Assembly: GCA_944389275.1 (NCBI GenBank)
Contig: CALXLT010000033.1
Span: 62,001 to 126,000 of the forward strand
Length of the DNA stretch: 64,000 bases
Source: an uncultured Spirochaetaceae bacterium
GTDB lineage: Bacteria; Spirochaetota; Spirochaetia; Sphaerochaetales; Sphaerochaetaceae
Reading direction: 5' to 3'
In this document: piece after piece, positions 28,622-51,386 of the stretch
Layout of the letters: each line of letters opens with the position of its first letter
Numbering within the stretch: the stretch's first letter is position 1
Made by a program: the position numbers and the translations under genes
Notes under the pieces: model-generated
Databases searched by the model: none
Seen by the model: the letters and a program-made list of their open reading frames with translations, nothing else
Told to the model about the DNA's origin: nothing

Positions 28622-29276
28622 TTCCATCCTCCAGCGCGTTGATTATCCTCACATCGTTTCCAGCGATGCAGCAGGAAGCGACCCTGTAGCCTTTGCTGAG
28701 CGAGGACCAGACATCCTCAAGCACATCCCCATCAAGCTCCACGCGCAAAGGCATTGAGGCAAAGGGCTCAACACTCTCGCTGTCCCCTTCATATGTATGG
28801 ATGACATGAGCGACCCCAGGCTCCTTGCCATAGCGATAGAGAAGACGCTCTGCATTCTCACCGTCCTTGCGGATGATGCCGAGGCAGTATCCTGCGTCAT
28901 CGATGATCCCGGTTATCCGAGGGGTGTAGATAGGGCCATCGGGCTCATATGTCCGCTTCATAAGAGCCCCTTCCACGTCCCCTCCTGATATAATCTCATC
29001 GTATATGGTATCGGTATGGTCGCCGTTGGTGACTATGATACTCTCGCCGATCCGCCGTACAGCGCTGTATATGATGAGTGATGGATCTGAAACCTTGGAC
29101 TCATCGAAAGGCTCAGTACGTATGATGCCATCCTGGCTTCTTAGCACCCTGTTCCGGCTATTCTCGCTCCTGCCTGTTATCGCATAGAGAGCCACCGGCT
29201 GCCCTGCCCTGTCATATCCTAGAAGTATGATCCGTCCCGGGTAATCGATCCCGGAAAGATATGTGCCTGCTGTCAT
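28608..29276 (-). CDS. purO: IMP cyclohydrolase, archaeal PurO type
   Basis: A 222-residue enzyme of the PurO family, which closes FAICAR to IMP in archaea and some bacteria. The signature parts are TYLSGIDYPGRIILLGYDRA near the start, YAITGRSENSRNRVL near 31-45, and IIVTNGDHTDTIYD near 98. It does not resemble the PurH N-terminal domain. It is the first gene of a pair with the PurH formyltransferase, so together they perform the last two steps of IMP synthesis. Upstream on the same strand are a stem-loop and a T-run that could act as an attenuator. Confidence 0.9.
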   Translation of the reverse strand: MTAGTYLSGIDYPGRIILLGYDRAGQPVALYAITGRSENSRNRVLRSQDGIIRTEPFDESKVSDPSLIIYSAVRRIGESIIVTNGDHTDTIYDEIISGGDVEGALMKRTYEPDGPIYTPRITGIIDDAGYCLGIIRKDGENAERLLYRYGKEPGVAHVIHTYEGDSESVEPFASMPLRVELDGDVLEDVWSSLSKGYRVASCCIAGNDVRIINALEDGNGEA

Positions 29277-34606: not shown

Positions 34607-34615
34607 AGCCAGCAA

Positions 34616-36343: not shown

Positions 36344-37319
36344 GTAATCCTCCTTCAAGATTTCCGGGAAAATACTTGTTTATGACAGCAATTTCCGGCT
36401 CCTCAAACTCCCGGGATTTCCCCAATGCCATGATATTCTCCATCAGCTGCCCTTCGGTTCGGGCTCCAATAAGCACAGATGTCACCCTCTTATTGAAAAG
36501 CAGCCAAGCAATTGCCAGCTCTGATATTGTTTGTCCCCTTTCAATTGCCATCCTATCCAATACTCTAAGGTTTTCAACAAGTTTGGGAGTCAGCTCTTTT
36601 CTTATCCTATCGCTTCTTGTCCCTCTTGCGTCAGGAGGGATATCTCCTGAAAGATATTTCCTGGTAAGAATTCCCTGATTCAAAGGAGAGAAAACAACAC
36701 AGCCTATACCAAGTTCATCCAAGCCTTCTAAAAGATCATCATCCTCAATATGACGATCAATGATATTGTAGCGAACCTGATTGACTAGAATATGAAGGCC
36801 TCGCTTCTCCATAAGCTTTGCCATCTTCACGGCCTCTTCCCTGCTATAGTTCGAGATAGCTATATACAAAGCCTTACCACTTCTTACTATTGATTCCAGA
36901 GCTTCAGCGGTTTCTTCCATCGGAGTCACAGGATCTGGCCGATGATGATAGAAAATATCCACATATTCCAACCCAAGCAATCCTAGGCTTCTATCGATAG
37001 ATGCAATAAGATGCTTCTTTGATCCCCAATTCCCATATGGCCCATTCCAGCAATCGTATCCTGCTTTTGTCGCTACGATTATCTCATCTCGATGATTAAC
37101 GAATAAATCCCGCATAATCTGCCCAAACCGTTCTTCAGCACTCCAAGCAGGTGGACCATAATTATCCGCAAGATCAAAATAAGTAATCCCATTGTCAAAT
37201 GCAGTCTTAAGGATATTACGGCATTGCCTATAATCAGAGTCCTTCCCGAAATTCTGCCAAAGTCCAAACGATAATTCAGGAAGGAAGAGCCCTGATTTTC
37301 CAGCTCTTCTATATTCCAT
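36327..37319 (-). CDS. Aldo/keto reductase, YghZ/MgrA type
   Basis: A 330-residue NADPH-dependent reductase of the AKR14/YghZ group, which reduces L-glyceraldehyde 3-phosphate or related aldehydes. The catalytic tetrad is visible: Asp and Tyr in YFDLADNYGPP (48-58), Lys in IIVATKAGYDCW and His in DIFYHHRPDPVTP. The C-terminal cofactor loop VLIGARTEGQLMENI is present. Length matches. It lies between beta-mannosidase (89-bp gap) and the dehydratase (overlap), so it may interconvert a sugar aldehyde for that pathway. Confidence 0.91.
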   Translation of the reverse strand: MEYRRAGKSGLFLPELSFGLWQNFGKDSDYRQCRNILKTAFDNGITYFDLADNYGPPAWSAEERFGQIMRDLFVNHRDEIIVATKAGYDCWNGPYGNWGSKKHLIASIDRSLGLLGLEYVDIFYHHRPDPVTPMEETAEALESIVRSGKALYIAISNYSREEAVKMAKLMEKRGLHILVNQVRYNIIDRHIEDDDLLEGLDELGIGCVVFSPLNQGILTRKYLSGDIPPDARGTRSDRIRKELTPKLVENLRVLDRMAIERGQTISELAIAWLLFNKRVTSVLIGARTEGQLMENIMALGKSREFEEPEIAVINKYFPGNLEGGLHEKTT

Positions 37320-37408
37320 TGCATCAACCTCCCTGTAATGATAGTCATCTCATGCATTCAAAATAGGGATAGCCTTCGTCAAAAGCTATCCCCATGCAAG
37401 ATTTCTAC

Positions 37409-39835
37409 TTATCTGATATCCCAAACACTACGGACACAGAAATCAATGGTTCCAGATTCCTCTTGAATCTTTACACGTCTAACTCCAGGTTCCATATCAA
37501 AGTAATTATCGCTAAGGAGGAAACGCCCTGTATCAGAGTAAATCTCAACTGCCTTCGCATACGCAGATGACCTTATGACCAGTTCATTCCCCTCTCGCTC
37601 AACATCCAATTCTGGATTCTGCCATCTATAATATTTCGGCTCAGTGAAAAGTACAGAATCGAAAGATTTCAGTTCTTCACCTATATACAGCTGATAACTC
37701 AGATGTACATTACGGAAATCAGAACCTGAGAAATCAAGCTCTCCTATCCATGTTGCCTGCATTGCCGGGATATCAACAGGAATCTCTCCTGACTGTAGTT
37801 CAGATCCATCAGGATTTCTGAGCTGCCACTTCACAACAGCTTCAACAGCATCCTGAGTCTCATTCGTCACATTAAGCCTTGCCCTTACAGGCACAGGCCC
37901 ATGCGGCTCCTGTATTATTGATGTCTTATCCTGGCATTCCCCATATTCCTCACAGCTTAGATGGATTGGCTCGAAGAATCTCTTGGCAAAATAATGCAAG
38001 GCTTTCCACCTGCCATAATAATCTATCGAGGCCCATGAAGCTACTGGCCATATATCATTAAGCTGCCAGTAAATGGCACCCATGCAGCGACCTCTGTATC
38101 TTCTCCAGTGCTCTACACCATATTTCATAGCCTCTGCCTGCAACAGCTGTGAAGCGTAGAGAAGCACATCAAAATCAGCAGGATAAAGATAATTCTTAGC
38201 GATATAGGTCATGATAAGTCCATTAGCGCCTTCATTACGCTGATGGGTTTCCATTACGCGTGAGAATATGTTCCAATCCTCTGGTAATGAGAATTCCTTC
38301 ACAGAAGCCTTACACGGAAATGACTGGAATCCGAATTCTGAGACATACCGGAAGAAATCATTCCTATATTCAGAGAACGGAAGACGGCCATGCCATACAT
38401 CCCAGCAATGCGAGTCACCCCTATTCGGATCCGTTGGATTATCGAAGTTTCCTCCAGAGGATGGAGAGGATGGCCAGTATGGAGTGATTGGATCCTCCTT
38501 CTCAAGTATATGCGGTATGATGTGCTGGTACATACGGATATAGGAAGCCTTTGTCTTGCAATTACCATTGTACCTTTCTACCGGGGTATACATCTCCATC
38601 TCATTATTTCCGCACCAAAGGCCAAGAGAAGCATGATGCCTTATGCGACGGACATTTTCTATAATCTCCTTTGATATGTTCTCCTCGAATCTCGGTGCAT
38701 CAATCGGATAATTCGCACAGGCGAACATCAGATCATGCCAAACCACAAGGCCGAATTCATCACAGGCATCAAAGAATTCGTCAGATGGATAATATCCTCC
38801 GCCCCAAATTCTTATTGCATTGAAATTCGCAGCTTTGCAATCAGTCAGGAGCTTCCTTGTACGCTCAGGCGTAATACGAGACAATATATTATCCTCTGGG
38901 ATGTAGTCTGCCCCCATCGCAAAGAAATCAACTCCATTGACACAATGGGAAAAACTTTCACCCCATTCATCAGGCTTACGGGTAAGAGATATCGTTCTCA
39001 ATCCTATACGCTTCGTGATTGAATCAACGACAATACCATCATGGAAAAGCTCAATCCTTAATGTATAAAGGGGCTGGTCTCCAAGCCCATTCGGCCACCA
39101 AAGCTCCGGATTCTCTACGATGAATTCACCCAATGATCTAGCCTTGATAGGTGTACCATCAGGGGAAAGCAAAGATATCACGACATCCGCATCACCTTCC
39201 TTCTCTACGGATACGGAAATCTGCACATTATCATGGTGATGGATTTGCCTGACTTTCCAATCGGTGATCCTCGCAGAATCAATCCCGATGATATCAATAT
39301 CCTTCCAGATGCCAATATCAGGAAGCCGAGGCCCCCAATCCCAGCCAAACATGCAATGAGCCTTCCTTATATACGGGAACCCCTGCATTGCATAAATGCT
39401 ACCGCCCCAATGTTCTTTGGCATCCATCTCTTTGATGTAATTAACAGGCGACTTGAATTCAATCCTGATTGTATTCTCTCCGTTCTTCAAGACCTGCTTT
39501 ATATCAAAAGTCCAATGCCTATGCATATTCTCGGCATGGCCGACGTATACTCCATTGATATATACGTCACAGATTGTATCAAGCCCTTTGCAGCTCAATT
39601 CAATAGCAGGACATGAATAAATATCGCTATCCAGGCTAAATGAACGCTCAAAGACCCAGTCCTGCTTCATTAGGTCCATTGTTTCCAACTCATTATCACG
39701 CCAATATGGATCATTCATGGTGCCATCGGCTAAAAGGATTGAATAAACTGACCCTGGAACATTTCCATTATGTGCTCCAGCAGGATTGCTTTTATTCCAA
39801 GCATTCCACTCCCCATTCAATGTCTGATACTTCAT
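37409..39835 (-). CDS. Beta-mannosidase, glycoside hydrolase family 2
   Basis: An 808-residue GH2 enzyme with the domain order sugar-binding, immunoglobulin-like, TIM barrel and C-terminal domains. The acid/base Glu is in GLWCGNNEMEMY and the nucleophile Glu in YVSEFGFQSFP. The opening LNGEWNAWN and the VPGSVYSILLADGTMNDPYW segment are those of beta-mannosidases rather than beta-galactosidases. No signal peptide is present, so it should act on oligosaccharides imported by the adjacent ABC system, releasing mannose. It begins 3 bp after the inner permease stop. Confidence 0.92.
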   Translation of the reverse strand: MKYQTLNGEWNAWNKSNPAGAHNGNVPGSVYSILLADGTMNDPYWRDNELETMDLMKQDWVFERSFSLDSDIYSCPAIELSCKGLDTICDVYINGVYVGHAENMHRHWTFDIKQVLKNGENTIRIEFKSPVNYIKEMDAKEHWGGSIYAMQGFPYIRKAHCMFGWDWGPRLPDIGIWKDIDIIGIDSARITDWKVRQIHHHDNVQISVSVEKEGDADVVISLLSPDGTPIKARSLGEFIVENPELWWPNGLGDQPLYTLRIELFHDGIVVDSITKRIGLRTISLTRKPDEWGESFSHCVNGVDFFAMGADYIPEDNILSRITPERTRKLLTDCKAANFNAIRIWGGGYYPSDEFFDACDEFGLVVWHDLMFACANYPIDAPRFEENISKEIIENVRRIRHHASLGLWCGNNEMEMYTPVERYNGNCKTKASYIRMYQHIIPHILEKEDPITPYWPSSPSSGGNFDNPTDPNRGDSHCWDVWHGRLPFSEYRNDFFRYVSEFGFQSFPCKASVKEFSLPEDWNIFSRVMETHQRNEGANGLIMTYIAKNYLYPADFDVLLYASQLLQAEAMKYGVEHWRRYRGRCMGAIYWQLNDIWPVASWASIDYYGRWKALHYFAKRFFEPIHLSCEEYGECQDKTSIIQEPHGPVPVRARLNVTNETQDAVEAVVKWQLRNPDGSELQSGEIPVDIPAMQATWIGELDFSGSDFRNVHLSYQLYIGEELKSFDSVLFTEPKYYRWQNPELDVEREGNELVIRSSAYAKAVEIYSDTGRFLLSDNYFDMEPGVRRVKIQEESGTIDFCVRSVWDIR

Positions 39836-39838
39836 GTC

Positions 39839-40711
39839 TCACCCCTTTACTGCTCCAGCGACCATGCCATCCATGATCTTCCTGCTGAAGAATATGTATA
39901 TAAGCAATGATGGGAATGTCGCTATCACCATAGCTGCCATCATCACAGGATAATTCGTGGTAAAGGAACCGCTGAATAATGTAAGCCCCAACGGAACCGT
40001 TCGCAACGTCTCTCGGCTTATGAGAATCAATGCAAAGCTGAATTCATTCCAACAATAGAAAAAGGATATGATCCCTATAGTCACTAATATTGGTTTAGCA
40101 ATTGGAAGGATTATACGGAACAACGTATATGAGAAGCTCGCACCATCAATCGAAGCAGCCTCTTCCATTTCTCTTGGAATGCTATGCACATAGCTTTCTG
40201 CAAGATAGATTCCCTGAGGTAGCTCAAAACAGATATATGGAAGGATTAGCGCAATAAGGCTATCCGTCAGCCCTATATCCGAGAATATGACATACATCGG
40301 TACCATAAGCGAATGCACAGGAACAAGCATTCCTAGAAGGAATAAGTTGAAAATCAGCCTACGCCCTCTGAACTTCATCCTAGCAACGAAATATCCGACT
40401 ATGAAGCTGAAGAGTATGATGCCAGATACCGATACGACAGAAACAATGATTGAATTAAGCATGTATCTGAACATAGGTGTAGTACTTAATACATGCACAT
40501 AATTATCCAATGTGGGAGCTGTTGGAAGAGAAAAGCTATCAACATCGAATTCAAATTGTGTCTTAAGCGAGGAATATACAAGCCATATCATCGGATAAAG
40601 ACAACCAATCGATGCAATGATCGCATATATATTCATGACAACTCTGCCAGCAAAACCCCATCGAGCTGCCCTTTTAAGATCAATAGCCTGAAGATCCTTT
40701 TCCTTATTCAT
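39839..40711 (-). CDS. CUT1-type sugar ABC transporter permease, MalG-like
   Basis: A 290-residue inner-membrane permease with six predicted helices and an EAA motif of the form EEAASIDGASFSYTLFRIILP near residue 190. The C-terminus ends in the MalG-typical GMVAGAVKG. The start at 40711 (MNKEKDLQAIDLKRAAR) is preferred over 40735 and overlaps the MalF-like gene by 8 bp. Works with the MalF-like permease and the binding protein; no ATPase gene is in the operon, so a shared MsiK/MalK-type ATPase elsewhere is expected. Confidence 0.93.
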   Translation of the reverse strand: MNKEKDLQAIDLKRAARWGFAGRVVMNIYAIIASIGCLYPMIWLVYSSLKTQFEFDVDSFSLPTAPTLDNYVHVLSTTPMFRYMLNSIIVSVVSVSGIILFSFIVGYFVARMKFRGRRLIFNLFLLGMLVPVHSLMVPMYVIFSDIGLTDSLIALILPYICFELPQGIYLAESYVHSIPREMEEAASIDGASFSYTLFRIILPIAKPILVTIGIISFFYCWNEFSFALILISRETLRTVPLGLTLFSGSFTTNYPVMMAAMVIATFPSLLIYIFFSRKIMDGMVAGAVKG

Positions 40712-41582
40712 TCTCAGGCCTCCCCTGTGTAGCACGTCTGACCAGAACGGTTATGAGAATGCTAAGTATAAGGATACCTACCGATACCGCACTTCCATAT
40801 CCCATCCTATAGCGTATGAATGAGTTCTGATATGCATAAAGGGCCATCACATTCGTTGCATTCCCAGGCCCGCCTCCTGTCATGACATAAATATGATCGA
40901 AGATCTTCATATTTCCGGATATACATAATGTCAGGCAGACAATAAGTGTATTCCTGATCATCGGCATCACAATATGCATCAGCCTCTGCAAGGCATTTGC
41001 CCCATCAATTTCTGCAACCTCTATAACGGAACTGTCGATTGCTGCCAGCCCTGCAAGGATTATGATCATATAGTATCCGATATTCTTCCAGATCAGAGGG
41101 ATTGAGGATAGGATAAGAGCCATATCAGCGTTGGCAAGCCAAGGCTGTATATATTCATCCAGACCAACAAAGGCGAGGACATCATTTATCAGTCCATTAT
41201 TATAATCATAGAGCATCTGCCATATGAAACCAACGACAACAGCAGAAAGAATAGCGGGAAAGTATGCTACCGACAAATGCATCTGACGCAGCTTTATCCC
41301 CCTGGAATTCAATACAAGCGCCAATATTAAAGCTAGACCTATCTGCCCTATGATGCATATAACTGTTATCTCTATATTGTGCAGGAATGACTGCCAAAAA
41401 ACCTTATCAGATGCAAGTGTGATAAAGTTCTCAACCCCTATGAATGTCTTCTTAGGTCCACCCGCCCAGTTGAACAAGCTATAGTATAGAGCACCAGCAA
41501 CAGGAACAAGGATTATAAAACAATAAAGAAACACAGGAATCGAAAGATATGCAAAATATGTACTTCTGCGTAATGCCTTCAT
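40704..41582 (-). CDS. CUT1-type sugar ABC transporter permease, MalF-like
   Basis: A 292-residue permease with six membrane helices. The EAA loop reads IEVAEIDGANALQRLMHIVMP near residue 200 and the last cytoplasmic loop has MTGGGPGNATNVMALYAYQNS, typical of MalF/UgpA-like proteins. The start at 41582 (MKALRRSTYFAYLSIPVFLY) fits the family better than the upstream codon. A stem-loop separates it from the binding-protein gene. Substrate is inferred to be a beta-mannoside oligosaccharide from the neighbouring GH2 gene. Confidence 0.92.
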   Translation of the reverse strand: MKALRRSTYFAYLSIPVFLYCFIILVPVAGALYYSLFNWAGGPKKTFIGVENFITLASDKVFWQSFLHNIEITVICIIGQIGLALILALVLNSRGIKLRQMHLSVAYFPAILSAVVVGFIWQMLYDYNNGLINDVLAFVGLDEYIQPWLANADMALILSSIPLIWKNIGYYMIIILAGLAAIDSSVIEVAEIDGANALQRLMHIVMPMIRNTLIVCLTLCISGNMKIFDHIYVMTGGGPGNATNVMALYAYQNSFIRYRMGYGSAVSVGILILSILITVLVRRATQGRPENE

Positions 41583-41608
41583 ACCATCTCCTATCCAGAA
41601 CAAGTCGG

Positions 41609-41637
41609 CTGCCAAAAGCCAATGAGGCTAATGGCAG
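41609..41637 (-). other. Intercistronic stem-loop between binding-protein and permease genes
   Basis: CTGCCA/TGGCAG outer arms and AGCC/GGCT inner arms form a nested hairpin between the binding-protein stop (41658) and permease start (41582). There is no T-run, so it is more likely an mRNA-stabilising element that keeps binding protein in excess than a terminator. A comparable hairpin occupies the same place in the other ABC operon at 48 kb. Confidence 0.6.
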
Positions 41638-41657
41638 TCAAATAAACAATGCAGTAA

Positions 41658-42977
41658 TTATCTCGTTGCCTCGTATTCAGCCTGGATTACCTCAGCAGCT
41701 GCCTCCGGTGTTGTCCTTCCTGCAAGAAGCTCTACAAACTGATCATTCATTACAGCAATAAGAGAAGCATTCATATTGGCATCCCAAATAGGAACTGTAC
41801 TTGTTGCATTATCTACAAAAGCAAGATAGTTCTCGTGCAATGTATCAAATTCCACACCTTCACTTGGAGGAGTATTGCAAGTGCTTACGAGACCTACATC
41901 TGTCATTCTCTGAGACAGAGCCGGCCCAGAGATGTAGAGGGCAAGATCGGCAGCCTTTGCAAGGCGCTCCCCAGTGAGCTTTGAATTTACTCCACAGAAC
42001 CAGCCACAACCAGAAGAGGCGGAGGTAGGATCACCGATTCCACCTTCCACCGTAGGCATATATGCGAATCCAACATTCTCTAAGATATCGGGCGTTGCGA
42101 TACCAGCCATATACTCAACATTCCAATAGCCATCAATCGTAGTTGCCGCTTTCCCCTGAAGGAATAATGAGGAAGCATTCTGGTTATCCACTACTGAATA
42201 GTCTGGATTGAACAATCCGCTCTGCCCTAACTGTACCACGAATTCAAGCAGCTTTATGAATTCCGGATCCGTGAAGGCCACCTCGTCGCTTCCAGCAATC
42301 ACAGAATTAACCCAATCCTCTCCACAGAACCTAGGACCAAGTGTTGAAATCCAAGAGGAATTGAACTGCCATTTATCCCGGTTGCCAAAAGCAATAGGAT
42401 ATACCCCCATCTCTTCAAACTTCGGAATCGCAGCAAAGACCTCCTCCCATGTTGAAGGGAATTCATCATAACCGGCTGCAGCCCAAAGCTCCTTATTATA
42501 AAAGACCACAGAAGTCGTTGAGAACTGCATAGGTGTAGCCATTATCTTTCCATCAACAGTTGCTGGGAAGAAAAGCCCATCCCTATACTCATCAAGCCAA
42601 GGACAAGCCTCAACATACTCCGTCAGATCAGCAATGAGCCCACTGTCATAGAAGTTCTTCACCCAAGAACCCTTCATTATGAAGACATCCGCAAGATCAT
42701 CTGCTGCAGCCCTTGCCTGGATTACAGTCTCATAATCATTATGCTGGAACTCTGTTACCTGAAGATCGAGAGTATCAGCATTCAGCTCTGCATATTCCAG
42801 TATAGCCTCCCGTGGCATTTTTCTGGTATTATCAGTTGCTGACTCTTCCTTGGTATATGAACTTGTCATGGCAAGCACCATGCGACCATCCGAGGAAGAT
42901 TCTTCCTTCTGTCCGCCAGCGAAAACAAAGGATGAAACTAGGAAAGCCACCATTACGAATGTGATTATTCTCTTCAT
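41658..42977 (-). CDS. Extracellular sugar-binding protein, CUT1 family
   Basis: A 439-residue solute-binding protein with a spirochaete-style signal: MKRIITFVMVAFLVSSFVFA then GGQKEESS. The binding-protein family 1 fold is seen in TTSVVFYNKELWAAAGYDEF and FLQGKAATTIDGYWNVEYMA. The ATG at 42977 has GGAGGT ahead of it. First gene of the seven-gene operon, transcribed from a promoter at 42998-43025 next to a palindrome shared with the divergent RpiR gene. The ligand is inferred to be a beta-mannoside. Confidence 0.93.
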   Translation of the reverse strand: MKRIITFVMVAFLVSSFVFAGGQKEESSSDGRMVLAMTSSYTKEESATDNTRKMPREAILEYAELNADTLDLQVTEFQHNDYETVIQARAAADDLADVFIMKGSWVKNFYDSGLIADLTEYVEACPWLDEYRDGLFFPATVDGKIMATPMQFSTTSVVFYNKELWAAAGYDEFPSTWEEVFAAIPKFEEMGVYPIAFGNRDKWQFNSSWISTLGPRFCGEDWVNSVIAGSDEVAFTDPEFIKLLEFVVQLGQSGLFNPDYSVVDNQNASSLFLQGKAATTIDGYWNVEYMAGIATPDILENVGFAYMPTVEGGIGDPTSASSGCGWFCGVNSKLTGERLAKAADLALYISGPALSQRMTDVGLVSTCNTPPSEGVEFDTLHENYLAFVDNATSTVPIWDANMNASLIAVMNDQFVELLAGRTTPEAAAEVIQAEYEATR

Positions 42978-42997
42978 TCTTACCTCCACTTATTCCA

Positions 42998-43025
42998 AAC
43001 ATAGCACATTCTAGCATTTTGTAAA
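42998..43025 (-). promoter_or_regulatory. Promoter of the beta-mannoside operon
   Basis: On the minus strand TTTACA (43020-43025) and TATGTT (42998-43003) are 16 bp apart, ahead of the binding-protein gene. Confidence 0.6.
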
Positions 43026-43031
43026 GAAAAA

Positions 43032-43047
43032 TCTTTTCATGAAAAGA
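43032..43047. promoter_or_regulatory. Probable RpiR operator
   Basis: TCTTTTCATGAAAAGA is a perfect 16-bp palindrome in the gap between the RpiR gene and the operon it faces, adjacent to the -35 box. Its AT-rich TTTTC/GAAAA arms resemble sites reported for RpiR-type regulators. Confidence 0.62.
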
Positions 43048-43094
43048 AAATTATTTTATTTGCATCGCAGGACGTTTGTTCCTATCATGTTCTT

Positions 43095-43925
43095 ATGGAT
43101 GTAAGTGTCTTCTACAATATCAAAAGATATAATGATTCATTAAGCGCAAAAGAAAGGAAAATAGCCGATTACATACTCGAGCACCCTTCTGAGGTTATCG
43201 ATTTATCAATAAGCGATATAAGCAATCAGATCGGAATCAGCAATGCGACCATGGTCCGCTTTGTCAGAAAAATAGGATTTGATAGCTACCATGATTTCCG
43301 TATAAGCCTTGCAAAGGAAAATGTTCCGGTCGATATGAAAGCCATCGAAAGTGGATCAGATCCTATTTCACTGGCATTCGATAGGACCAAGAGATGCTTG
43401 GATATAGCCAGAAACAGGATTAGTGCAGAAGCTATATCCAAAGCAGGCGATCTCATCACAAAAGCCTCTATGCTTTATGCATTTGGCGTTGGAGGTTCTG
43501 CAATAACGGCTTTTGACTTCTTCCATAGATTCATAAGTACAGGAATCCCCTGCCTATTCAATACAGATTTCCATACGCAGCTGATACTGGCATCCCAAAG
43601 CAAGCCAGGGGATGTTGCCATCTTATTCTGTTATACCGGCATCAACCGCGATTCCATCGATATAGCGAAGGTACTTAAGGAAAAGGGATGTACAATCATA
43701 ATAGTAACGCGAGATGACAATTCCCCGATAAACCAATATGCGGATCTTGGCATCTATGTTTCTGGCATGACGGCTCCCAGCGAGATAACCGATACATATC
43801 CAGAACGTATCAGTCTGTCGGTCATAGTAGATGTTCTGTATCTCATCGTTATATCAAAGCTTAAAGATAAGAGCATAAAGCCTGTCAAAAATGTTGTCGA
43901 AATAGAGAAAACAAGAAGATTGTAA
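43095..43925 (+). CDS. MurR/RpiR-family transcriptional regulator
   Basis: A 276-residue regulator with an N-terminal RpiR helix-turn-helix (SAKERKIADYILEHPSEVID, then ISNATMVRFVRKIGFDSYHD to about residue 75) and a SIS phosphosugar-binding domain (about 105-235, FGVGGSAITAFDFFHRFIS). Such proteins respond to sugar phosphates. It is divergent from the transporter and beta-mannosidase operon across a 117-bp gap with a palindrome, so it very probably controls that operon. Codon use is AT-rich like the island. A strong terminator follows. Confidence 0.93.
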   Translation: MDVSVFYNIKRYNDSLSAKERKIADYILEHPSEVIDLSISDISNQIGISNATMVRFVRKIGFDSYHDFRISLAKENVPVDMKAIESGSDPISLAFDRTKRCLDIARNRISAEAISKAGDLITKASMLYAFGVGGSAITAFDFFHRFISTGIPCLFNTDFHTQLILASQSKPGDVAILFCYTGINRDSIDIAKVLKEKGCTIIIVTRDDNSPINQYADLGIYVSGMTAPSEITDTYPERISLSVIVDVLYLIVISKLKDKSIKPVKNVVEIEKTRRL

Positions 43926-43935
43926 TCAATAGCCT

Positions 43936-43975
43936 CCATATGCCAATGATAAACACATGGCATATGGCCTCTATT
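43936..43975. terminator. Bidirectional terminator between rpiR-type and dauR-like genes
   Basis: CCATATGCCA (43936-43945) and TGGCATATGG (43958-43967) form a perfect 10-bp stem, followed on the plus strand by CTCTATTTCTTTTT. It separates two convergent genes. Confidence 0.82.
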
Positions 43976-44657
43976 TCTTTTTCTTAGAAGCTTTCTTGCT
44001 CTTCTCCGTATCCGATGAATCCGAACCCCTGATCTCGTCCAGATAGTTGTATATGGAGAATTTGGATATCTGGAACCTGTCAGCGACCTTGTCCATTGAC
44101 TTCATGATGAGGAAAATCCCTTTCTTCTCCAGGAACTCGATGGCCTTCATCTTGTCCTTCTTCGTCATCTCGCTTATCGGCTTGCCGATCAGGTCAAGGG
44201 ACTGCTCGATAAGGTAATCCATCAGATCATCGATGTTCCCTGAGAAATGCTCGCTCATCGCGTTCTCCGGATTGACGCTTATGAATGCGTTCATCTCCCT
44301 TTGCCCGGCTAAAAGCCCTGTGATATCGAAGTTTATGCAGATGCTTCCCGTTATGTTCCCATCCTCATCGTTCAGGTATATAGACGAGGATTTGATTATC
44401 TTGTTATCGAGGGTGCGGTTCACATAGTTGTACTGGTCAGAGCCGGAGGAAGTGCCGCGAAGGATCTCCAGCCCCATATTCGTTCCCGAGTCCCCGACCT
44501 TGCGCCCCGTGACATGGCCATTCTCGATCGCGACGATAGTATGCTCATAGTCCCTCGTCAGGTCATGCAGAACCACCTCGCAGTTCTCCCCGAACTGGGC
44601 GGCGATTCCCTTTATTATCCTGCTGAACATATCGAAGTTATCCATCACGTAGCTCAA
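43971..44657 (-). CDS. DauR/YheO-like PAS-domain transcriptional regulator
   Basis: A 228-residue regulator with an N-terminal YheO-like PAS domain (about 10-120, FGENCEVVLHDLTRDYEHTI and GSICINFDITGLL) and a C-terminal HTH_22-type DNA-binding domain (about 165-215, GIFLIMKSMDKVADRFQISK). A lysine-rich tail ends the protein. The family includes DauR, which controls D-arginine use, consistent with the divergent D-amino-acid-type operon. The TTG at 44657 is preferred: it has AAAGGAGGG at good spacing and overlaps the SGNH stop codon; an ATG at 44678 is possible. Confidence 0.85.
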   Translation of the reverse strand: MSYVMDNFDMFSRIIKGIAAQFGENCEVVLHDLTRDYEHTIVAIENGHVTGRKVGDSGTNMGLEILRGTSSGSDQYNYVNRTLDNKIIKSSSIYLNDEDGNITGSICINFDITGLLAGQREMNAFISVNPENAMSEHFSGNIDDLMDYLIEQSLDLIGKPISEMTKKDKMKAIEFLEKKGIFLIMKSMDKVADRFQISKFSIYNYLDEIRGSDSSDTEKSKKASKKKK

Positions 44658-45295
44658 TTGGTTTTCCCTCCTTTGCATATGGTTCCGATGAAGCCATGGA
44701 CAAGACGGGCCAGCACGGGCTGAGTCTCCTCTGACAGATGGATGCCATCCCTTGGGTCCACGGTTATGGATGAGGTATCCAGGAACGGAATGCCCTCCTC
44801 CTCAGCGTAGGCCTGCAGCATCGCGTTGAAGGCCCTCATCTTCTCCTCGCCGTTCTCGAAAAGCTCTGCCTTGTCCGGGACGATCGGCAGGAAGACAGGA
44901 GGAGCGGCAATCGCGATCACAGCTTCCTGCCTTCTTTCATCCAGGGTTTCCTTCACGCGCTTCACAAGCCGCTTCATCCCCTCAAGGACCTCTTCCGGGG
45001 AAGCTTTATACCTTGTCTTGAAGTCATTCGTGCCAAGCATAATCAGGAAGATATCGAACGGCAGGGAGCGTTCGATCGACGCGAGGACCGAGTCATAGCC
45101 ATTGAGCTCTATCGGGTCAGACTCCTGTGGGAGGATCGATCTGCCAGGGAACCCCTCGTCACAGACTTTCCAGCCATCTCCAAGCGCCTCCTGCAGCAGC
45201 GTTGTCCACCGCACAGGATAAGGGAACCTCCGCTCCTCGGTACCGGGGATGCGTCCGTACGTATTAGAATCTCCAAACAATACAACTTTCTTCAT
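44654..45295 (-). CDS. SGNH/GDSL-type esterase or hydrolase
   Basis: A 213-residue cytoplasmic SGNH hydrolase. Block I is VVLFGDSNTYG (residues 3-13, catalytic Ser in GDSN), block III is IMLGTNDFK with the conserved Gly-Asn, and block V is DGIHLSEETQ with the Asp-His pair. It hydrolyses an ester or acyl group. It is cotranscribed with the DauR-like regulator and divergent from the deacylase-transporter operon, so it may act on the same imported compound. The start at 45295 has no visible Shine-Dalgarno; the mRNA leader may be very short. Confidence 0.88.
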   Translation of the reverse strand: MKKVVLFGDSNTYGRIPGTEERRFPYPVRWTTLLQEALGDGWKVCDEGFPGRSILPQESDPIELNGYDSVLASIERSLPFDIFLIMLGTNDFKTRYKASPEEVLEGMKRLVKRVKETLDERRQEAVIAIAAPPVFLPIVPDKAELFENGEEKMRAFNAMLQAYAEEEGIPFLDTSSITVDPRDGIHLSEETQPVLARLVHGFIGTICKGGKTN

Positions 45296-45315
45296 AAAAT
45301 CAAATATTTTTGTAT

Positions 45316-45343
45316 ATTTTACGATGGATAGGCCAAAAAGCAA
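45316..45343 (-). promoter_or_regulatory. Promoter for the SGNH-dauR-like unit
   Basis: TTGCTT (45338-45343) and TAAAAT (45316-45321) on the minus strand, with a 16-bp spacer. The rest of the 238-bp divergent gap is AT-rich and holds a TTGACA (45467-45472) that could serve the plus-strand operon. Confidence 0.5.
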
Positions 45344-45533
45344 CTTAAAAAGATTTTTTATCCAGAAAGCCTATGATTTATCATACAGAATGCGAATTTT
45401 CGTCTATAAAAGGAAATCTCTAAAGGAGTAGATTGGCATTATTTCAATCTTTTCTGCAAAAATATTTGACAATACGCCAAACCGGTGTTAACCAATATAT
45501 ACAATAATTTTTGAAATTCCGCAGGAGGAGAAG

Positions 45534-46679
45534 ATGGCTGCTGATAAATCCCAGGATCTTGCCAGGCTTTTGTCTGAGATGATACGGATCAATACGGTTT
45601 CGCCTCCTGGGAACGAGAAGGACCTTGCCGCATACATCGCGGAGATCCTCCGAAGCAATGGCCTTGAGCCCACGATACAGGACCTTGGGAACAACAGGGC
45701 GAATATCTTCTGCGAGATCGGAGAGGGGGACGAGTGCCGTCTCATCCTCAACGGACACCTGGATGTGGTGCCGGCAGAAGGCGAATGGAAGCACGATCCT
45801 TTCGAGGGCCGGATCGACGGCGAGTACCTATACGGACGCGGAGCCTGCGACATGAAGGCGGGGCTCGCGTGCATGCTTCAGGCCTTCATCGACACTGCAA
45901 AGGAAGAATCCAGGCTGAAAGGCAGGCTGAAGCTCTTCTTCGTCACGGACGAGGAGACAAGCAACCTCGGCCTGAGAAGCTATATATCTGAATACGGGGA
46001 GAAGGACAGGCTCTCTGCAAAGCGCAACTACGCGCTCATCGGGGAGCCTACGGATCTCAATGTATGCAACAGCCATTATGGCGTCGAGAGGTACTGGATC
46101 AATGTGCATGGGGTAAGCGCCCATTCAAGCAAGCCAGAGCTTGGCGTCAATGCTATATCCGGAGCCGCGGCGATCGTTGATAGCCTCAGCGGCTACCATA
46201 AGGAGCTCAGGTCAAGGGTCACGGAATGGGGAAGCCCTTCATGCGCGGTCACGATGATAGAAGGCGGCGAGAAGCAGAACAGCATAGCAGCCCACGCGCG
46301 TGTATTCATCGACAGGCGCACGGTACCTGGCGAGAAGGCGGAGGATGTGAAGAAGGAAGTCGAGGCATGGCTTGATGAGAGGACTGATCTCAGGGGCTGC
46401 ACCTGCGACACCGAGCTTTATTTCACGTTTGGCTCAGGCCTTCTTCCCTCAGGCAACAGCTTCCTCTCCGCGATCATGGAGGAAGCCGGGCAGGAAAAGG
46501 CAGAGGTATTCCCCGCAGGATGCGAGCAAGGGATAATGCTCTCCGCAGGCTACGAGGCGGCAGTGCTCGGCCCGGGAAGCATAAAGGACGCGCATATGCC
46601 TGACGAGAAGGTACGCGTGAGCGACCTCGGGAAGGCCTATGAGCTATATAGGAAGATCATCTCAAGAATATTGATGTGA
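45534..46679 (+). CDS. M20-family deacylase, ArgE/DapE type
   Basis: A 381-residue metallopeptidase-fold deacylase that removes an acyl group or splits a small peptide bond. The dinuclear metal site is complete: NGHLDVVPAEGEWKHDPF (77-94) with His and Asp, GRGACDMKAGLACM with the bridging Asp, and VTDEETSNLG with the catalytic Glu. The lid domain has GVSAHSSKPELGVNAI. GGAGGAG lies seven bases ahead of the start. First gene of a six-gene operon; the binding-protein gene begins 20 bp downstream. Substrate is probably an N-acyl amino acid or related amide. Confidence 0.92.
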   Translation: MAADKSQDLARLLSEMIRINTVSPPGNEKDLAAYIAEILRSNGLEPTIQDLGNNRANIFCEIGEGDECRLILNGHLDVVPAEGEWKHDPFEGRIDGEYLYGRGACDMKAGLACMLQAFIDTAKEESRLKGRLKLFFVTDEETSNLGLRSYISEYGEKDRLSAKRNYALIGEPTDLNVCNSHYGVERYWINVHGVSAHSSKPELGVNAISGAAAIVDSLSGYHKELRSRVTEWGSPSCAVTMIEGGEKQNSIAAHARVFIDRRTVPGEKAEDVKKEVEAWLDERTDLRGCTCDTELYFTFGSGLLPSGNSFLSAIMEEAGQEKAEVFPAGCEQGIMLSAGYEAAVLGPGSIKDAHMPDEKVRVSDLGKAYELYRKIISRILM

Positions 46680-46699
46680 AAAAAAAAGGAGAAAACCGT

Positions 46700-48010
46700 A
46701 TGAAGAAACTTTTATCAGTTCTTCTGGTCGTGCTTATGGCGGCATCGCTGGTCTTCGCCGGAGGTTCAAAGGAATCCGCAGGGCCAAGGATCCGTGTCCT
46801 CAGCATGACAGCCCAGATTTCCGATGGAATCCTTGAATACCTTGACGAATTCGAGGAAGAATCAGGAATCAAGGTCGATCTCGAGCTTTATGGCGAGGCA
46901 GAGCTCAGGCAGAAAGAGATGACAGAGTTCATGACAGGGAACTCAACTGTCGATGTATATCTCTTCAGCCCTCTCCAGGACATGGCAGCATTCAGCCAGA
47001 ACGGATGGATCGAACCGCTTGATGAGTACCTTGATGATCCAGAGCTCAACTGGGATGATTTCAGCAGCGCACCGCCGAAGCAGATCACTATCCCAGGCAC
47101 GGACAGCATAGGATGCCTCCCGCTCTATTCATCTGTACAGCTCATGTACTACAGGACAGATGTCTTCGAGAAGTATGGCCTCGAGCCGCCTAAGGACTAC
47201 GATGAGCTCATCGAGGTCTGCAAGAAGATCAATGATCCAGCCAACAACTTCTACGCTATCGCGTGCAGAGGCGAAAGGAACGCCCTTACATCACAGTACT
47301 CACCGTTCCTCTTCGCGTTCGGCGGCAGCTTCATCAAGGACGGAAAGAGCAATTTCGCATCTGAAGGCTCCTATGAGGCAACGAAGTTCTATGGCGAGCT
47401 CCTTGGCAACTACGCTCCTCCAGGAATCCTCACCGCTGGCTACTCGCAGATGACGCAGCTCTTCAACTCAGGAACTGTCGGAATGGTCATCGACGCGAAC
47501 GCCCTCTACGCAACGCTCGTCGATCCAGCTGAGTCAGCATACGCGGACAAGGTTGGCGTGGCGGCTATCCCGGCAGGACCGGAAGGCGCTCATTCCTACA
47601 TGCAGGTATCATGGGCAGTGGCTATGTATCCTGGCTCGAAGAACAAGGAAGCTGCATGGGAATTCATGAAGTTCGTGGCAGGATCTGACGTCGCCGCATA
47701 CATCACCCCGCTTGGAATGCCAAGCTTCAGGAACTCCGTATGGACAGACGAGAGAGTCGAGAGCGCGATGACACCTGACATGGTCCAGGCTTATGCCGAT
47801 ACATACGCTATCACGACAAACAACGAGTTCGGCCTGCCAAGGATGACAGCCGTAACCGAAGCCAGGGATATCATGGGCGGAGCCGTCGTGTACTCCATCG
47901 AGACAAAGGGCCAGGGCCCGGAGCTCAAGGGCATGATGGAGGAAGCCGCGGCGGAGGTCGATGAGCTTCTCAAGGCCTACGACGAGTACGGCGAGAACTA
48001 CAACTGGTAA
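46700..48010 (+). CDS. Family 1 extracellular solute-binding protein
   Basis: A 436-residue binding protein with signal MKKLLSVLLVVLMAASLVFA and mature start GGSKESAG. The fold is that of sugar-type binding proteins (SSVQLMYYRTDVFEKYGLEP, NSGTVGMVIDANALY), yet all neighbouring enzymes act on amide or amino-acid chemistry. It may therefore bind an amino-sugar, acyl-amino-acid or peptide-like ligand. The ATG at 46700 has AAGGAG upstream. A stable hairpin lies between it and the next permease gene. Confidence 0.92.
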   Translation: MKKLLSVLLVVLMAASLVFAGGSKESAGPRIRVLSMTAQISDGILEYLDEFEEESGIKVDLELYGEAELRQKEMTEFMTGNSTVDVYLFSPLQDMAAFSQNGWIEPLDEYLDDPELNWDDFSSAPPKQITIPGTDSIGCLPLYSSVQLMYYRTDVFEKYGLEPPKDYDELIEVCKKINDPANNFYAIACRGERNALTSQYSPFLFAFGGSFIKDGKSNFASEGSYEATKFYGELLGNYAPPGILTAGYSQMTQLFNSGTVGMVIDANALYATLVDPAESAYADKVGVAAIPAGPEGAHSYMQVSWAVAMYPGSKNKEAAWEFMKFVAGSDVAAYITPLGMPSFRNSVWTDERVESAMTPDMVQAYADTYAITTNNEFGLPRMTAVTEARDIMGGAVVYSIETKGQGPELKGMMEEAAAEVDELLKAYDEYGENYNW

Positions 48011-48023
48011 AGAACAATACCTC

Positions 48024-48053
48024 GTTCCCGAGGAAGGAGACTTCCCCGGGAAC
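48024..48053 (+). other. Intercistronic stem-loop with GAGA tetraloop
   Basis: A nearly perfect 12-bp stem (48024-48036 with 48041-48053, one A/C mismatch) closes a GAGA loop of the stable GNRA type. It has no T-run. Its place directly after the binding-protein gene suggests protection of that part of the mRNA from decay, or partial transcription stop, to give excess binding protein. Confidence 0.7.
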
Positions 48054-48078
48054 TCTATCCAAACAAAGGAGAAAGCTG

Positions 48079-48954
48079 ATGAATGACTGGATTAGCGATC
48101 ATTATAAATGGGTGTTCGTTGCTCCTGCCTTGATCTTCATGGTACTGATGATAGTAGTACCTATAGTCATGACGCTGGCCTTCAGCCTCACTGACTGGAA
48201 CCTGCTTACGGGAAGGGCACCTAGCTTCAACGGTCTGGCAAATTATATCGAAATCCTGAAAAGCCCGGATTTCTGGCACTCATTCGGTATAACTTTCTAT
48301 TATACGTTCCTTGCGATCGCGATGGAGCTGGTAGCGGGTGTGCTCCTGGCTGTCCTCATAAACAAGGATTTCAGAGGAAAGGGTGTCGTGAAGACGATCA
48401 TCCTCCTTCCCTATATGATGGCTCCTGTGGCCGTAGGCATGATGTGGATGCTCTTCTATGAGCCTACAAGCGGATTCATGAACTGGCTCTTCACGACCAT
48501 AGGCCTTCCGCGCTCAGGCTTCACCTCAGCCCGTGGCTCTGTAATACCATCGCTCGCGTTCGTCGAGTTCTGGCAGATGACGCCGATGGTGGTGATCGTC
48601 TGCATGGCCGGCCTCGCCGCGCTCCCGGAAGACTGCATGGAAGCCGCCGTCGTTGATGGCGCCACGCCTATACAGACCTTCTTCCGCGTGAAGCTCCCGA
48701 TGCTGCTGCCTACGATATTCTCAATCGGACTGCTGCGTTTCGTTGATGTGTTCAAGTCCTTCGACCTCATCTACGCGATGACGAAAGGCGGACCCGCGAA
48801 TGCGTCAAGGACACTTAATATATACGCGTATGAGGAAGCGTTCTCATACTACAAGTTCGGGCTCTCATCTTCGATACTGACCGTCGTGTTCATAATCGTG
48901 CTGGCCATAAGCTTCGCAACGATGAAGCTCAAGAACAAAGTCGTGGAGGTGTAG
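48079..48954 (+). CDS. CUT1-type ABC transporter permease, MalF-like
   Basis: A 291-residue permease with six helices. The EAA loop reads MEAAVVDGATPIQTFFRVKL near residue 190, and MTKGGPANASRTLNIYAYEE is the MalF-like last cytoplasmic segment. AAAGGAG lies ahead of the start. One base separates its stop from the next permease. It works with the binding protein upstream; the ATPase must come from elsewhere in the genome. Confidence 0.93.
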   Translation: MNDWISDHYKWVFVAPALIFMVLMIVVPIVMTLAFSLTDWNLLTGRAPSFNGLANYIEILKSPDFWHSFGITFYYTFLAIAMELVAGVLLAVLINKDFRGKGVVKTIILLPYMMAPVAVGMMWMLFYEPTSGFMNWLFTTIGLPRSGFTSARGSVIPSLAFVEFWQMTPMVVIVCMAGLAALPEDCMEAAVVDGATPIQTFFRVKLPMLLPTIFSIGLLRFVDVFKSFDLIYAMTKGGPANASRTLNIYAYEEAFSYYKFGLSSSILTVVFIIVLAISFATMKLKNKVVEV

Positions 48955-48955
48955 G

Positions 48956-49786
48956 ATGGAAGCATATAAGGCAAAGAAGACCATCGGGAAGATCATATTC
49001 TATATCGCGGTAGCGGCGATCTGCCTCGTTATCATCTTCCCTCTGTATTTCGTCTTCATCTCGTCATTCAAGAACATGGCGGATGTATACGTGATGCCTC
49101 CGAAGCTAATCGGGTTCAAGCCTGTGTTCGCGCATTACGAGTATATATTCAAGACGCAGAACTATGGCACGTATATCGTGAACAGCGCCGTTGTCGGCAT
49201 CTTCTCAACGCTCTTCGCGCTGGTGCTGGGACTTCCCGCTGCCTACGCGATCAACCGAAACGGGATGAAGAACTCGCTTCTGGGCATACTGGTCGCGAGG
49301 CTGCTGCCTCCTATGTCATTCCTGCTGCCGTTCTACTTCATCTTCTCGGAGCTCGGCATGGTAGACACGTACGGAGCGCTGATCCTCAGCCACATGGTGC
49401 TCTCGGTGCCTCTTATCGTATGGCTGATGGAAGGCTTCATAGCGGGCATCCCGCGCGAGCTTGACGAGGCCGCGACGATAGATGGATGCACAAGGCAGCG
49501 CTGCTTCGGCTCGATAATCCTGCCGATGTGCAAGTCAGGAATGGCGACAAGCACGATCCTCTCGTTCCTTGGATCATGGAACAACTTCCAGTTCGCGCTG
49601 ATCCTCAGCGGACCGAGGACAAGGACTCTTCCTGTCACGCTCCAGTACTTCGTATCAGGCGCGGACATCAGGTGGGGACGCATGCTCGCCGCGACAATAG
49701 TGGTTATCATACCAGCAATAGTAGTGACACTGTTGCTGCAGAAGAATATCGTATCTGGAATGACAGCCGGTGCTGTCAAAGGCTAA
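48956..49786 (+). CDS. CUT1-type ABC transporter permease, MalG-like
   Basis: A 276-residue permease of the MalG type with six helices, an EAA loop DEAATIDGCTRQRCFGSIIL near residue 168 and the standard C-terminus VSGMTAGAVKG. It pairs with the preceding permease in one membrane channel. The start overlaps the upstream ribosome-site region GTGGAGGTGTAGG, and the RidA gene follows after 12 bp. Confidence 0.93.
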   Translation: MEAYKAKKTIGKIIFYIAVAAICLVIIFPLYFVFISSFKNMADVYVMPPKLIGFKPVFAHYEYIFKTQNYGTYIVNSAVVGIFSTLFALVLGLPAAYAINRNGMKNSLLGILVARLLPPMSFLLPFYFIFSELGMVDTYGALILSHMVLSVPLIVWLMEGFIAGIPRELDEAATIDGCTRQRCFGSIILPMCKSGMATSTILSFLGSWNNFQFALILSGPRTRTLPVTLQYFVSGADIRWGRMLAATIVVIIPAIVVTLLLQKNIVSGMTAGAVKG

Positions 49787-49798
49787 GGAGGAAACAAT

Positions 49799-50269
49799 AT
49801 GCAGGAAATCTATGAGAATCTCAAGAAGGCAGGCGTCGAGGTACCTGGCGACAATCCGAAGGGCGGCATCTACAAGCCAGTCATGAGAGTCGGCAACATG
49901 CTCTATGTATCAGGACAGGGCTGCACGGTAAGCGGCAAGCCTGTGTACCAGGGAGCTGTCGGAAGGGAGTGCACGCTTGAGGAAGGACAGGATGCCGCGA
50001 AGCTCTGCGCTATCAACGCACTCGGCGTGCTCCAGGACTATCTCGGGGATCTCAGGAAGGTCAAATGCCTTGTGAAGACACTTGCATTCGTGCACAGCGC
50101 TCCTGATTTCGCGCTGCAGCACCTCGTAGCCAACGGTTGCTCCGACTTTCTGAAGACCGTATTCGGCGATGATGCGGGAGTCGGCGCGCGCTCTGCTATC
50201 GGAGTGGCTCAGCTTCCGAACAACATCCCTGTGGAGATCGAGTTCGTCTTTGAGGCGGAAGAGGAATAA
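49799..50269 (+). CDS. RidA-family (YjgF) enamine/imine deaminase
   Basis: A 156-residue member of the RidA superfamily, which hydrolyses reactive enamines and imines formed by PLP enzymes. The strand MRVGNMLYVSGQGCTVSGK and the C-terminal QLPNNIPVEIEFVFEA are typical; the conserved Arg of active RidA proteins may be the one in GVGARSAIGV. It is longer than classic RidA (about 130) and belongs to the group often found in amino-acid catabolic operons. One base separates its stop from the PLP enzyme gene, a strong hint that it clears an enamine made by that enzyme. Confidence 0.9.
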   Translation: MQEIYENLKKAGVEVPGDNPKGGIYKPVMRVGNMLYVSGQGCTVSGKPVYQGAVGRECTLEEGQDAAKLCAINALGVLQDYLGDLRKVKCLVKTLAFVHSAPDFALQHLVANGCSDFLKTVFGDDAGVGARSAIGVAQLPNNIPVEIEFVFEAEEE

Positions 50270-50270
50270 G

Positions 50271-51386
50271 ATGGAAAGGAATATCTACGGAATCACGGAT
50301 GAGGAGAGCGTGATCACCCCCGCTCTCGTATACTATCTGGATATCGTCAGGAAGAACACCGAGGAAGTGATCAGGATCGCGGGCTCTGCAGAGAGGCTGT
50401 GGCCGCACGTGAAGACCCACAAGTCCATCGATATGGTACGCCTCCTCCTTGGAATGGGGATCCATAAGTTCAAGTGCGCCACGATCCCTGAGTGCGAGAT
50501 GGTCGCGATGGCCGGAGCGACGGACGCGGTGCTCGCCTATCCGATCGTCGGACCTAATATCGCAAGGTTCCTCGAGCTGGAGAAGATGTATCCGAAGTGC
50601 GCGTTCTACGCTATCGGCGATGACTATGGCGCTATAAAGGCCCTTTCCGACGTGGCTGTGAAGAATGGCTCCAAGGTCCGCTTCCTCCTGGATGTGAACA
50701 TGGGCATGAACCGCACCGGTGTCGAGCTGGACAAGGCGGAGGAGCTTGCAAGGCAGGCGGCTGCGCTTCCTGGCATCGATTTCTGCGGCATGCACTGCTA
50801 TGACGGGAACCACAACAACAGTGATTTCCAGCAGAGGCTCAAGGATGTCAAGGAGACAGATGACCAGGTCGACGCGACCAAGGCATCACTCGAGAAGGAC
50901 GGCATAAGCTGCCGTGTCATGATCATGGGAGGAACGCCATCATTCCCATGCCATGCCCAGCTTACAAACTACTACCTCTCCCCTGGCACATGCTTCGTGT
51001 ATGACGGAGGCTATAAGAGGAACCTGCCTGACATCAACCTGACGCCGGCAGGCATCCTCATGACGCGTGTCATAAGCCATCCTGCAGACGGCATGTTCAC
51101 GATCGATCTCGGCTACAAGGGCATTGCCTCCGATCCCGCGGGAGCAAGGGGAGCCATCGTGGGCCTTGATGACGCGGAGATAGCCTTCCAGAGCGAGGAG
51201 CACTGGGTGTTCAGGATGAAGGAGGGAAAGGAAGACAAGCGTCCTCAGATCGGCACGATGCTCTACGTCATCCCGACGCACATCTGCCCGACATCCGCCC
51301 TCTATTCTGATATCCTCGTGGCCGAAGGCGGAAAGATAACGGCCAAGTGGCCGGTAACGGCAAGGAACAGGAAGATAAACATCTGA
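50271..51386 (+). CDS. D-threonine aldolase/D-serine dehydratase-type PLP enzyme
   Basis: A 371-residue fold-type III PLP enzyme of the alanine racemase-like D-TA group, which splits D-threonine or dehydrates D-serine and similar beta-hydroxy D-amino acids. The PLP lysine is in LWPHVKTHKSIDM (about 41-53), GGTPSFP is the phosphate loop and the divalent-metal site is the late THICPTSAL. The start at 50271 carries no overlap with RidA. The RidA neighbour favours the dehydratase (enamine-forming) reaction, but both are possible. Last gene of the operon, followed by a terminator. Confidence 0.88.
   Translation: MERNIYGITDEESVITPALVYYLDIVRKNTEEVIRIAGSAERLWPHVKTHKSIDMVRLLLGMGIHKFKCATIPECEMVAMAGATDAVLAYPIVGPNIARFLELEKMYPKCAFYAIGDDYGAIKALSDVAVKNGSKVRFLLDVNMGMNRTGVELDKAEELARQAAALPGIDFCGMHCYDGNHNNSDFQQRLKDVKETDDQVDATKASLEKDGISCRVMIMGGTPSFPCHAQLTNYYLSPGTCFVYDGGYKRNLPDINLTPAGILMTRVISHPADGMFTIDLGYKGIASDPAGARGAIVGLDDAEIAFQSEEHWVFRMKEGKEDKRPQIGTMLYVIPTHICPTSALYSDILVAEGGKITAKWPVTARNRKINI

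Follow-up and report, generated by a model that had tools for sequence, protein, structure and literature searches.

What does an uncultured spirochaete break down with a gene set that joins enzymes of the D-amino-acid kind to a sugar-type importer? The set lies in a 64,000-nucleotide stretch of contig CALXLT010000033.1 (hereafter the window, whose coordinates we use throughout) from an uncultured Spirochaetaceae bacterium (GenBank assembly GCA_944389275.1; 2.2 Mb, 57 contigs, 87.7% completeness). An initial annotation had read positions 43971–51386 as one pathway of import, deacylation and breakdown of a β-hydroxy D-amino acid, and had singled out the sugar-type transporter as odd. The genes are indeed there, but the functional unit appears to reach upstream to 33011, which adds a seven-gene operon. 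We think it reasonably probable that 33011–51386 forms a single catabolic island whose substrate is an N-acylated 2-amino-2-deoxy-aldonic acid (of the N-acetylglucosaminic-acid type) or its glycoside. Because such a compound counts as a sugar acid and as a β-hydroxy D-amino acid alike, a sugar-type importer for it is no longer a puzzle.

A rare, conserved gene set

All eight genes of the initial annotation are present as open reading frames, and Pfam agrees with their assignments. The features of this arm, including an ATP-binding cassette (ABC) importer with its solute-binding protein (SBP) and a pyridoxal 5'-phosphate (PLP) enzyme, are as follows.

43971–44678, minus strand: DauR/YheO-type regulator (Pfam PAS_6 and HTH_22)
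44654–45343, minus strand: SGNH/GDSL hydrolase (Pfam; motifs GDS, GTND and DxxH)
45457–45513, no strand: candidate operator, a putative function, with similar 12-mers CAAAAATATTTG and CAATAATTTTTG kept in three genomes
45534–46679, plus strand: M20 ArgE/DapE-family deacylase (Pfam M20 and M20_dimer; TIGR01910)
46700–48010 (reading frame open from 46676), plus strand: sugar-type SBP (SBP_bac_1)
48079–48954, plus strand: ABC importer permease A (BPD_transp_1)
48956–49786, plus strand: ABC importer permease B (BPD_transp_1)
49799–50269, plus strand: Rid-family imine/enamine deaminase (YjgF/Rid; PF14588, PF01042)
50271–51386, plus strand: fold-type III PLP enzyme of the metal-dependent D-amino-acid dehydratase family (D-Ser dehydratase/D-Thr aldolase/OngC kind; Ala_racemase_N and D-ser_dehydrat)

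As had been described, the M20-to-PLP genes form a tight operon in a single direction (intergenic gaps of 1–68 bp) and face the overlapping dauR and SGNH genes across 190 bp; this window operon has no ATPase gene of its own. The DauR protein scores 126.9 bits for the YheO PAS domain and 71.2 bits for HTH_22, both over the Pfam cut-offs. The M20 protein reaches 238.9 against TIGR01910 (cut-off 217.6) with all metal residues there (HxD, D, EE, E and H), and the Rid protein reaches 53.7 against PF14588 (cut-off 35), with an arginine like RidA Arg105 in an ARS motif. On inspection, the M20, Rid, SGNH and PLP enzymes each retain their catalytic motifs. The two 12-mers in the divergent region are a possible DauR operator; a firm assignment was not reached, the evidence being just two similar conserved 12-mers.

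Co-occurrence was examined in an even, unbiased sample of 393 spirochaete genomes. Homologs of the PLP enzyme (E ≤ 1e-50) were found in seven of these and the M20 gene (≥49% identity) in five, with the PLP gene adjoining it in all five; the SBP (≥70% identity) occurs in three, each of which also has M20 and PLP. The same operon is present in two other Ornithospirochaeta-type genomes, with 79–99% identity per enzyme or transporter protein, and the full eight-gene set is kept in L025 and in Candidatus Ornithospirochaeta stercoripullorum (L042). The window operon shares 97.4% DNA identity with an 'uncultured Spirochaetaceae' record (L024), and L042 is also close, which makes the source a spirochaete, probably living in an animal gut. 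Treponema UBA1798 (L026) carries a seven-gene version at 49–72% identity; the SGNH gene is missing from the Treponema versions. Given this co-occurrence and the conservation in L025, L042 and L026, the eight-gene set is a genuine, rare, conserved unit and not a chance arrangement. The initial annotation would have been refuted had its genes failed to occur together in other genomes, and they do occur together. In a further genome (G300), M20, PLP and Rid stand on their own, which suggests that M20 is able to occupy the deacylase slot.

Two other Treponema loci vary in content. In a related Treponema (L181) the ABC genes are retained and Rid is absent. T. parvum (L027), without the ABC genes and Rid, has DauR-M20-PLP directly ahead of DapA, Asd and a decarboxylase-like gene (recognised by eye). 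A link to lysine biosynthesis was dismissed as a neighbour effect, DapA, Asd and the decarboxylase being a set of their own that is missing at other M20-PLP loci.

A predicted dehydratase

The PLP enzyme had been assigned a D-threonine-aldolase fold. Its fold-type III kinship holds, with D-threonine aldolases, D-3-hydroxyaspartate aldolase (6qkb, 2e-26) and D-Ser dehydratase among its relatives, whereas its metal motif is of the dehydratase type: His337-x-Cys339, like chicken D-Ser dehydratase, and not the His-x-Asp of the aldolases (D-threonine aldolase and BhcC). His-x-Cys recurs in 81 of 81 aligned PLP sequences and in five distant homologs from the window genus. The best NCBIfam model is BhcC, at 124.8 bits against a cut-off of 690, and on the strength of metal motif and family score we rejected D-threonine aldolase or hydroxyaspartate aldolase as the activity. 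Given the dehydratase-type motif, the enzyme is expected to dehydrate its substrate, with loss of water and then ammonia, rather than cleave it by a retro-aldol reaction. We compared the neighbourhoods of 80 PLP homologs, which are not independent of each other; a Rid gene lies within 250 bp of the PLP gene at 59 of them, which fits an enamine product. A plasmid search for PLP-enzyme relatives, with OngC of the ong pathway (compared below) as the enzyme sought, gave only matches of at most 37% identity.

Gene neighbourhoods pointing to a sugar acid

Other partners at the 80 loci, several of them given their family by visual inspection of the sequences, are a COG3653 deacylase (27), an SSS-type transporter (17), a DauR-type gene (15), a PfkB kinase (14), a 2-keto-3-deoxy-6-phosphogluconate (KDPG) aldolase (14) and IlvD (10). 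A 2-keto-3-deoxy-gluconate (KDG)-type kinase and/or KDPG aldolase is found at 14 of the 27 loci with COG3653 versus 3 of the 53 without, and the 14 aldolases compare with about 0.9 expected from the density in the window genome itself. Loci bearing the kinase or aldolase are scattered over the PLP tree. Examples among spirochaetes are IclR-PLP-Rid-KDPG aldolase-PfkB (L185), COG3653-PLP-DapA-type aldolase-Rid (L179 and L180) and, within the window genus, PLP-Rid with SSS-DauR-COG3653-aldolase-kinase (L117). With pyruvate or 2-oxobutyrate as the product, clusters like those of L179 and L180 would have no need of an aldolase.

Glycosidases and transporters lead in the same direction. Three congeners (L176, L177 and L178) hold GH2, PLP, COG3653 and Rid in one cluster, with a PLP enzyme of a distant branch (25–29% identity), and GH2 is also in the PLP cluster of L026; the two congener loci that extend far enough upstream (L176 and L177) have SBP-permease and DauR genes as well. 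In L176 and L177 a GH9 gene with CelD_N (Pfam) follows Rid, and GH3 is present in one congener cluster. Sister SBPs (38–39% identity) adjoin genes for 6-phosphogluconate dehydrogenase, a KDG/2-keto-3-deoxy-galactonate (KDGal)-kinase-like protein and an idonate-dehydrogenase-like protein. In the genome itself, genes for galactonate dehydratase, a KDPG-type aldolase and a KDG/KDGal-type kinase lie together, and another kinase-aldolase pair is present too. In outline, the pathway first proposed is strongly backed by conserved gene association, namely import, deacylation, breakdown of a β-hydroxy D-amino acid, Rid clean-up and DauR-type control; its ligand, judged by the KDG kinase, KDPG/DapA-type aldolase and glycosidase neighbours of PLP relatives and by the sugar-acid neighbours of sister SBPs, is more likely to be a sugar acid too, a 2-acylamino-2-deoxy-aldonate.

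The upstream arm

Divergent from an rpiR gene, a seven-gene operon runs on the minus strand from 42989 to 33011 with gaps of −32 to +89 bp.

33011–34615, minus strand: D-aminoacylase/OngB-like deacetylase (COG3653-type amidohydrolase, subtype V residues)
34616–36358, minus strand: IlvD/EDD-family dehydratase, probable aldonate dehydratase
36327–37319, minus strand: aldo/keto reductase (AKR), YghZ-like, overlapping IlvD by 32 bp
37409–39835, minus strand: GH2 β-mannosidase-like glycosidase (β-mannosidases 6bye, 4e-137, and 2vjx, 1e-135)
39839–40735, minus strand: second ABC importer permease B (68% identical in L026)
40704–41615, minus strand: second ABC importer permease A (61% identical in L026)
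41658–42989, minus strand: second sugar-type SBP, SBP2 (weak match to chitin-oligosaccharide NgcE; 60% identical in L026)
43095–43925, plus strand: RpiR/MurR-type regulator (Pfam/NCBIfam; L026 has rpiR at the same place)

The deacetylase matches D-aminoacylase (1m7j, 5e-64), N-acyl-D-Glu deacylase (3gip, 3e-58) and PpOngB (9kb1, 2e-52), and its HxH, Cys, two His and catalytic Asp motifs are all there. In its pocket, T257, S295 and S399 correspond to Met254, Thr290 and Met346 of D-aminoacylase and to Ala256, Ser292 and Gly348 of OngB; it is polar at three of the four testable specificity positions (Met or Thr in D-aminoacylase), with S295 equal to OngB Ser292, and the fourth is a hydrophobic Met194 against OngB Ala193. 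The window IlvD matches IlvD genes adjoining PLP and Rid in Lachnospiraceae at about 800 bits. IlvD as an island-specific gene was ruled out, close orthologs being found at other loci in 11 congeners without GH2 or COG3653 alongside. The leaders of both SBPs (46700–48010 and 41658–42989) end in FAGG, without the lipobox cysteine for lipoprotein anchoring.

Treponema UBA1798 keeps both arms adjacent, in the order DauR-M20-SBP-permease A-permease B-Rid-PLP, RpiR, then SBP2-permeases-GH2-COG3653, without AKR, IlvD and SGNH. In L025 and L042 the DauR operon is present and the upstream arm is not. In the closest relative (G323, locus L186) homology breaks off at 43355, inside rpiR; the upstream arm is absent and an rpiR remnant is left. 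The arm is therefore variable, with either a recent loss in G323 or a recent exchange behind the difference. Its GC content is 0.42–0.46 versus 0.49–0.57 in the genes of the other arm, and the GC-poor stretch 33011–43355 compares with mostly 0.51–0.57 in neighbouring parts of the window. Further off, at 28608–29276 and 27458–28627, IMP_cyclohyd-family and AICARFT-domain proteins are encoded as separate genes and not as a PurH fusion.

Proposed pathway

The substrate, step order and regulation proposed here are read from the observed gene content, operon structure, catalytic motifs and conserved association. The two sugar-type ABC importers would take up the free acid and/or its β-glycoside, from which the GH2 enzyme would cut off the β-linked sugar. 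The N-acyl group would be removed by M20 and/or the D-aminoacylase/OngB-like enzyme; with COG3653 alongside, a different acyl group or a dipeptide-like amide may be what M20 acts on. The PLP enzyme would then dehydrate the free 2-amino-aldonate to an enamine and on to KDG (or KDGal) and ammonia, with Rid speeding the final enamine step, and the unlinked kinase and KDPG aldolase genes would finish the route to pyruvate and glyceraldehyde-3-phosphate. IlvD could channel non-amino aldonates into the same keto-deoxy intermediate, and the DauR and RpiR regulators would control the two operons. The sequence data are compatible with a glucose, galactose or mannose configuration alike. A more specific version, which we hold doubtful, is an anaerobic gut route for β-glycosylated N-acetyl-hexosaminates (for example, a mannosyl-N-acetylglucosaminate from glycoprotein glycans) in which M20 deacylates, to our knowledge as the first M20 peptidase-family enzyme to act on an amino-sugar acid, and both sugar units may meet at keto-deoxy-sugar acids before any phosphorylation.

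Alternative explanations

The main rival substrate is a plain N-acyl-D-Ser or N-acyl-D-Thr. M20 or the D-aminoacylase would release simple D-amino acids from N-acylated or dipeptide-bound forms, drawn perhaps from peptidoglycan or glycopeptides, for the PLP enzyme, with Rid, to dehydrate; the sugar genes would serve a carrier glycan. Several observations speak for such a substrate or otherwise weigh against an amino-sugar acid. D-Ser dehydratase is among the solved PLP relatives and OngC takes D-Ser and D-Thr too; the 33011–34615 deacetylase matches D-aminoacylase better than PpOngB, and the loop with the decisive OngB Gln298 is not alignable with it. Neither KDG kinase nor aldolase was recognised in the island itself, both being elsewhere in the genome. 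Lytic polysaccharide monooxygenase (LPMO; LPMO_10) and GH20 were not found in the 87.7%-complete genome, so that it would have no source of its own of chitin-derived N-acetylglucosaminic acid (GlcNAc1A), and the substrate would come from the diet, the host or other microbes. Genes of D-amino-acid use are known to have regulators of the DauR type. In Flavobacteria a renal-dipeptidase-like gene accompanies PLP-Rid, and G015 has a homologous set by N-acetylmuramic acid (MurNAc)-recycling genes; given these two contexts, substrates may differ between clades, and in G015 the PLP/Rid module is possibly tied to cell-wall recycling. There (L116, 4322–9392), near the PLP gene, Rid and COG3653 are followed in one operon by a MurQ-like SIS protein (called MurQ by eye, with SIS/GKRP-type domains from Pfam), a BadF-type kinase, PIG-L and the exo-muramidase NamZ. 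Several PLP operons, however, hold KDG kinase/KDPG aldolase or a DapA-type aldolase, sister SBPs lie in sugar-acid operons, and congener clusters include GH2, GH9 and GH3; plain D-Ser or D-Thr predicts none of these, and we regard such substrates as possible but not likely.

The arms might also be unrelated neighbours, an RpiR-run mannoside/sugar-acid operon beside a DauR-run N-acyl-D-amino-acid operon; the low GC of the upstream arm, its absence from the closest relative and the lone DauR operons of L025 and L042 speak for this. It is improbable in view of the adjacent arms in Treponema UBA1798 and the merging of GH2, COG3653, PLP and Rid into a single cluster in three congeners. Far less probable still is a β-hydroxyaspartate route through a BhcC-like 3-hydroxy-D-aspartate aldolase or a D-threo-3-hydroxyaspartate dehydratase: BhcC is the best NCBIfam model and 6qkb a relative, but the score is far under the cut-off, other bhc genes were not recognised among the annotated island genes, and a sugar-type importer is not expected.

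Significance and comparison with known systems

If the amino-sugar-acid reading is true, it would identify a nutrient of little-known gut spirochaetes, give a function to many proteins labelled just 'D-TA family PLP-dependent enzyme' and bring M20 into amino-sugar-acid deacetylation. The neighbourhoods suggest that related chemistry is spread over spirochaetes, Lachnospiraceae and further groups, in many cases gut-associated according to record titles, with parts interchangeable across groups (three candidate deacylase kinds, several importer kinds and two aldolase types). We know of no experimental demonstration of an amino-sugar-acid route of this sort outside marine chitin-eating bacteria.

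The kind of pathway is already known and not new. In the ong cluster of Pseudoalteromonas prydzensis, which serves GlcNAc1A use, OngB removes the acetyl group from 2-acetamido-2-deoxy-gluconate, OngC converts the deacetylated product to KDG and ammonia, OngD (RidA) is required for growth and KdgK phosphorylates KDG, a route established genetically and biochemically (Jiang et al., PMC9537276; OngB structure, PMC12017989). Such catabolism has been described as mainly a trait of marine, LPMO-bearing Gammaproteobacteria. The island shares with ong a D-aminoacylase-fold deacetylase (here in the adjacent operon), a fold-type III PLP deaminase, Rid and a proposed keto-deoxy-sugar-acid endpoint; by fold and metal motif its PLP enzyme is of the same general kind as OngC. 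Homologous clusters in Lachnospiraceae add to these an SSS-type transporter and a PfkB kinase, as well as a KDPG aldolase. The island differs in using ABC importers where ong has SSS and TonB, in its DauR and RpiR regulators and extra M20 deacylase, in having GH2 in place of GH20 (OngA), in its unlinked kinase and aldolase where ong has the KDG kinase in the cluster, and in its gut-type spirochaete host. Because no in-cluster kinase, SSS importer or GH20/LPMO was found, we call it a variant that would work like the ong pathway and not a member of it.

Two further systems come close in part. The Dga pathway of Salmonella uses a phosphorylated substrate, uptake by a phosphotransferase system and another PLP enzyme, features not seen in the island. 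It resembles the island in its stage from amino-aldonate to keto-deoxy-gluconate with release of ammonia (D-glucosaminate pathway; DGL, PMC9529869). Modules of D-aminoacylase, D-Ser dehydratase (D-TA family) and RidA for D-amino acids have the same three kinds of enzyme next to each other, whereas the island joins them with sugar ABC importers, with glycosidases and with sugar-acid genes.

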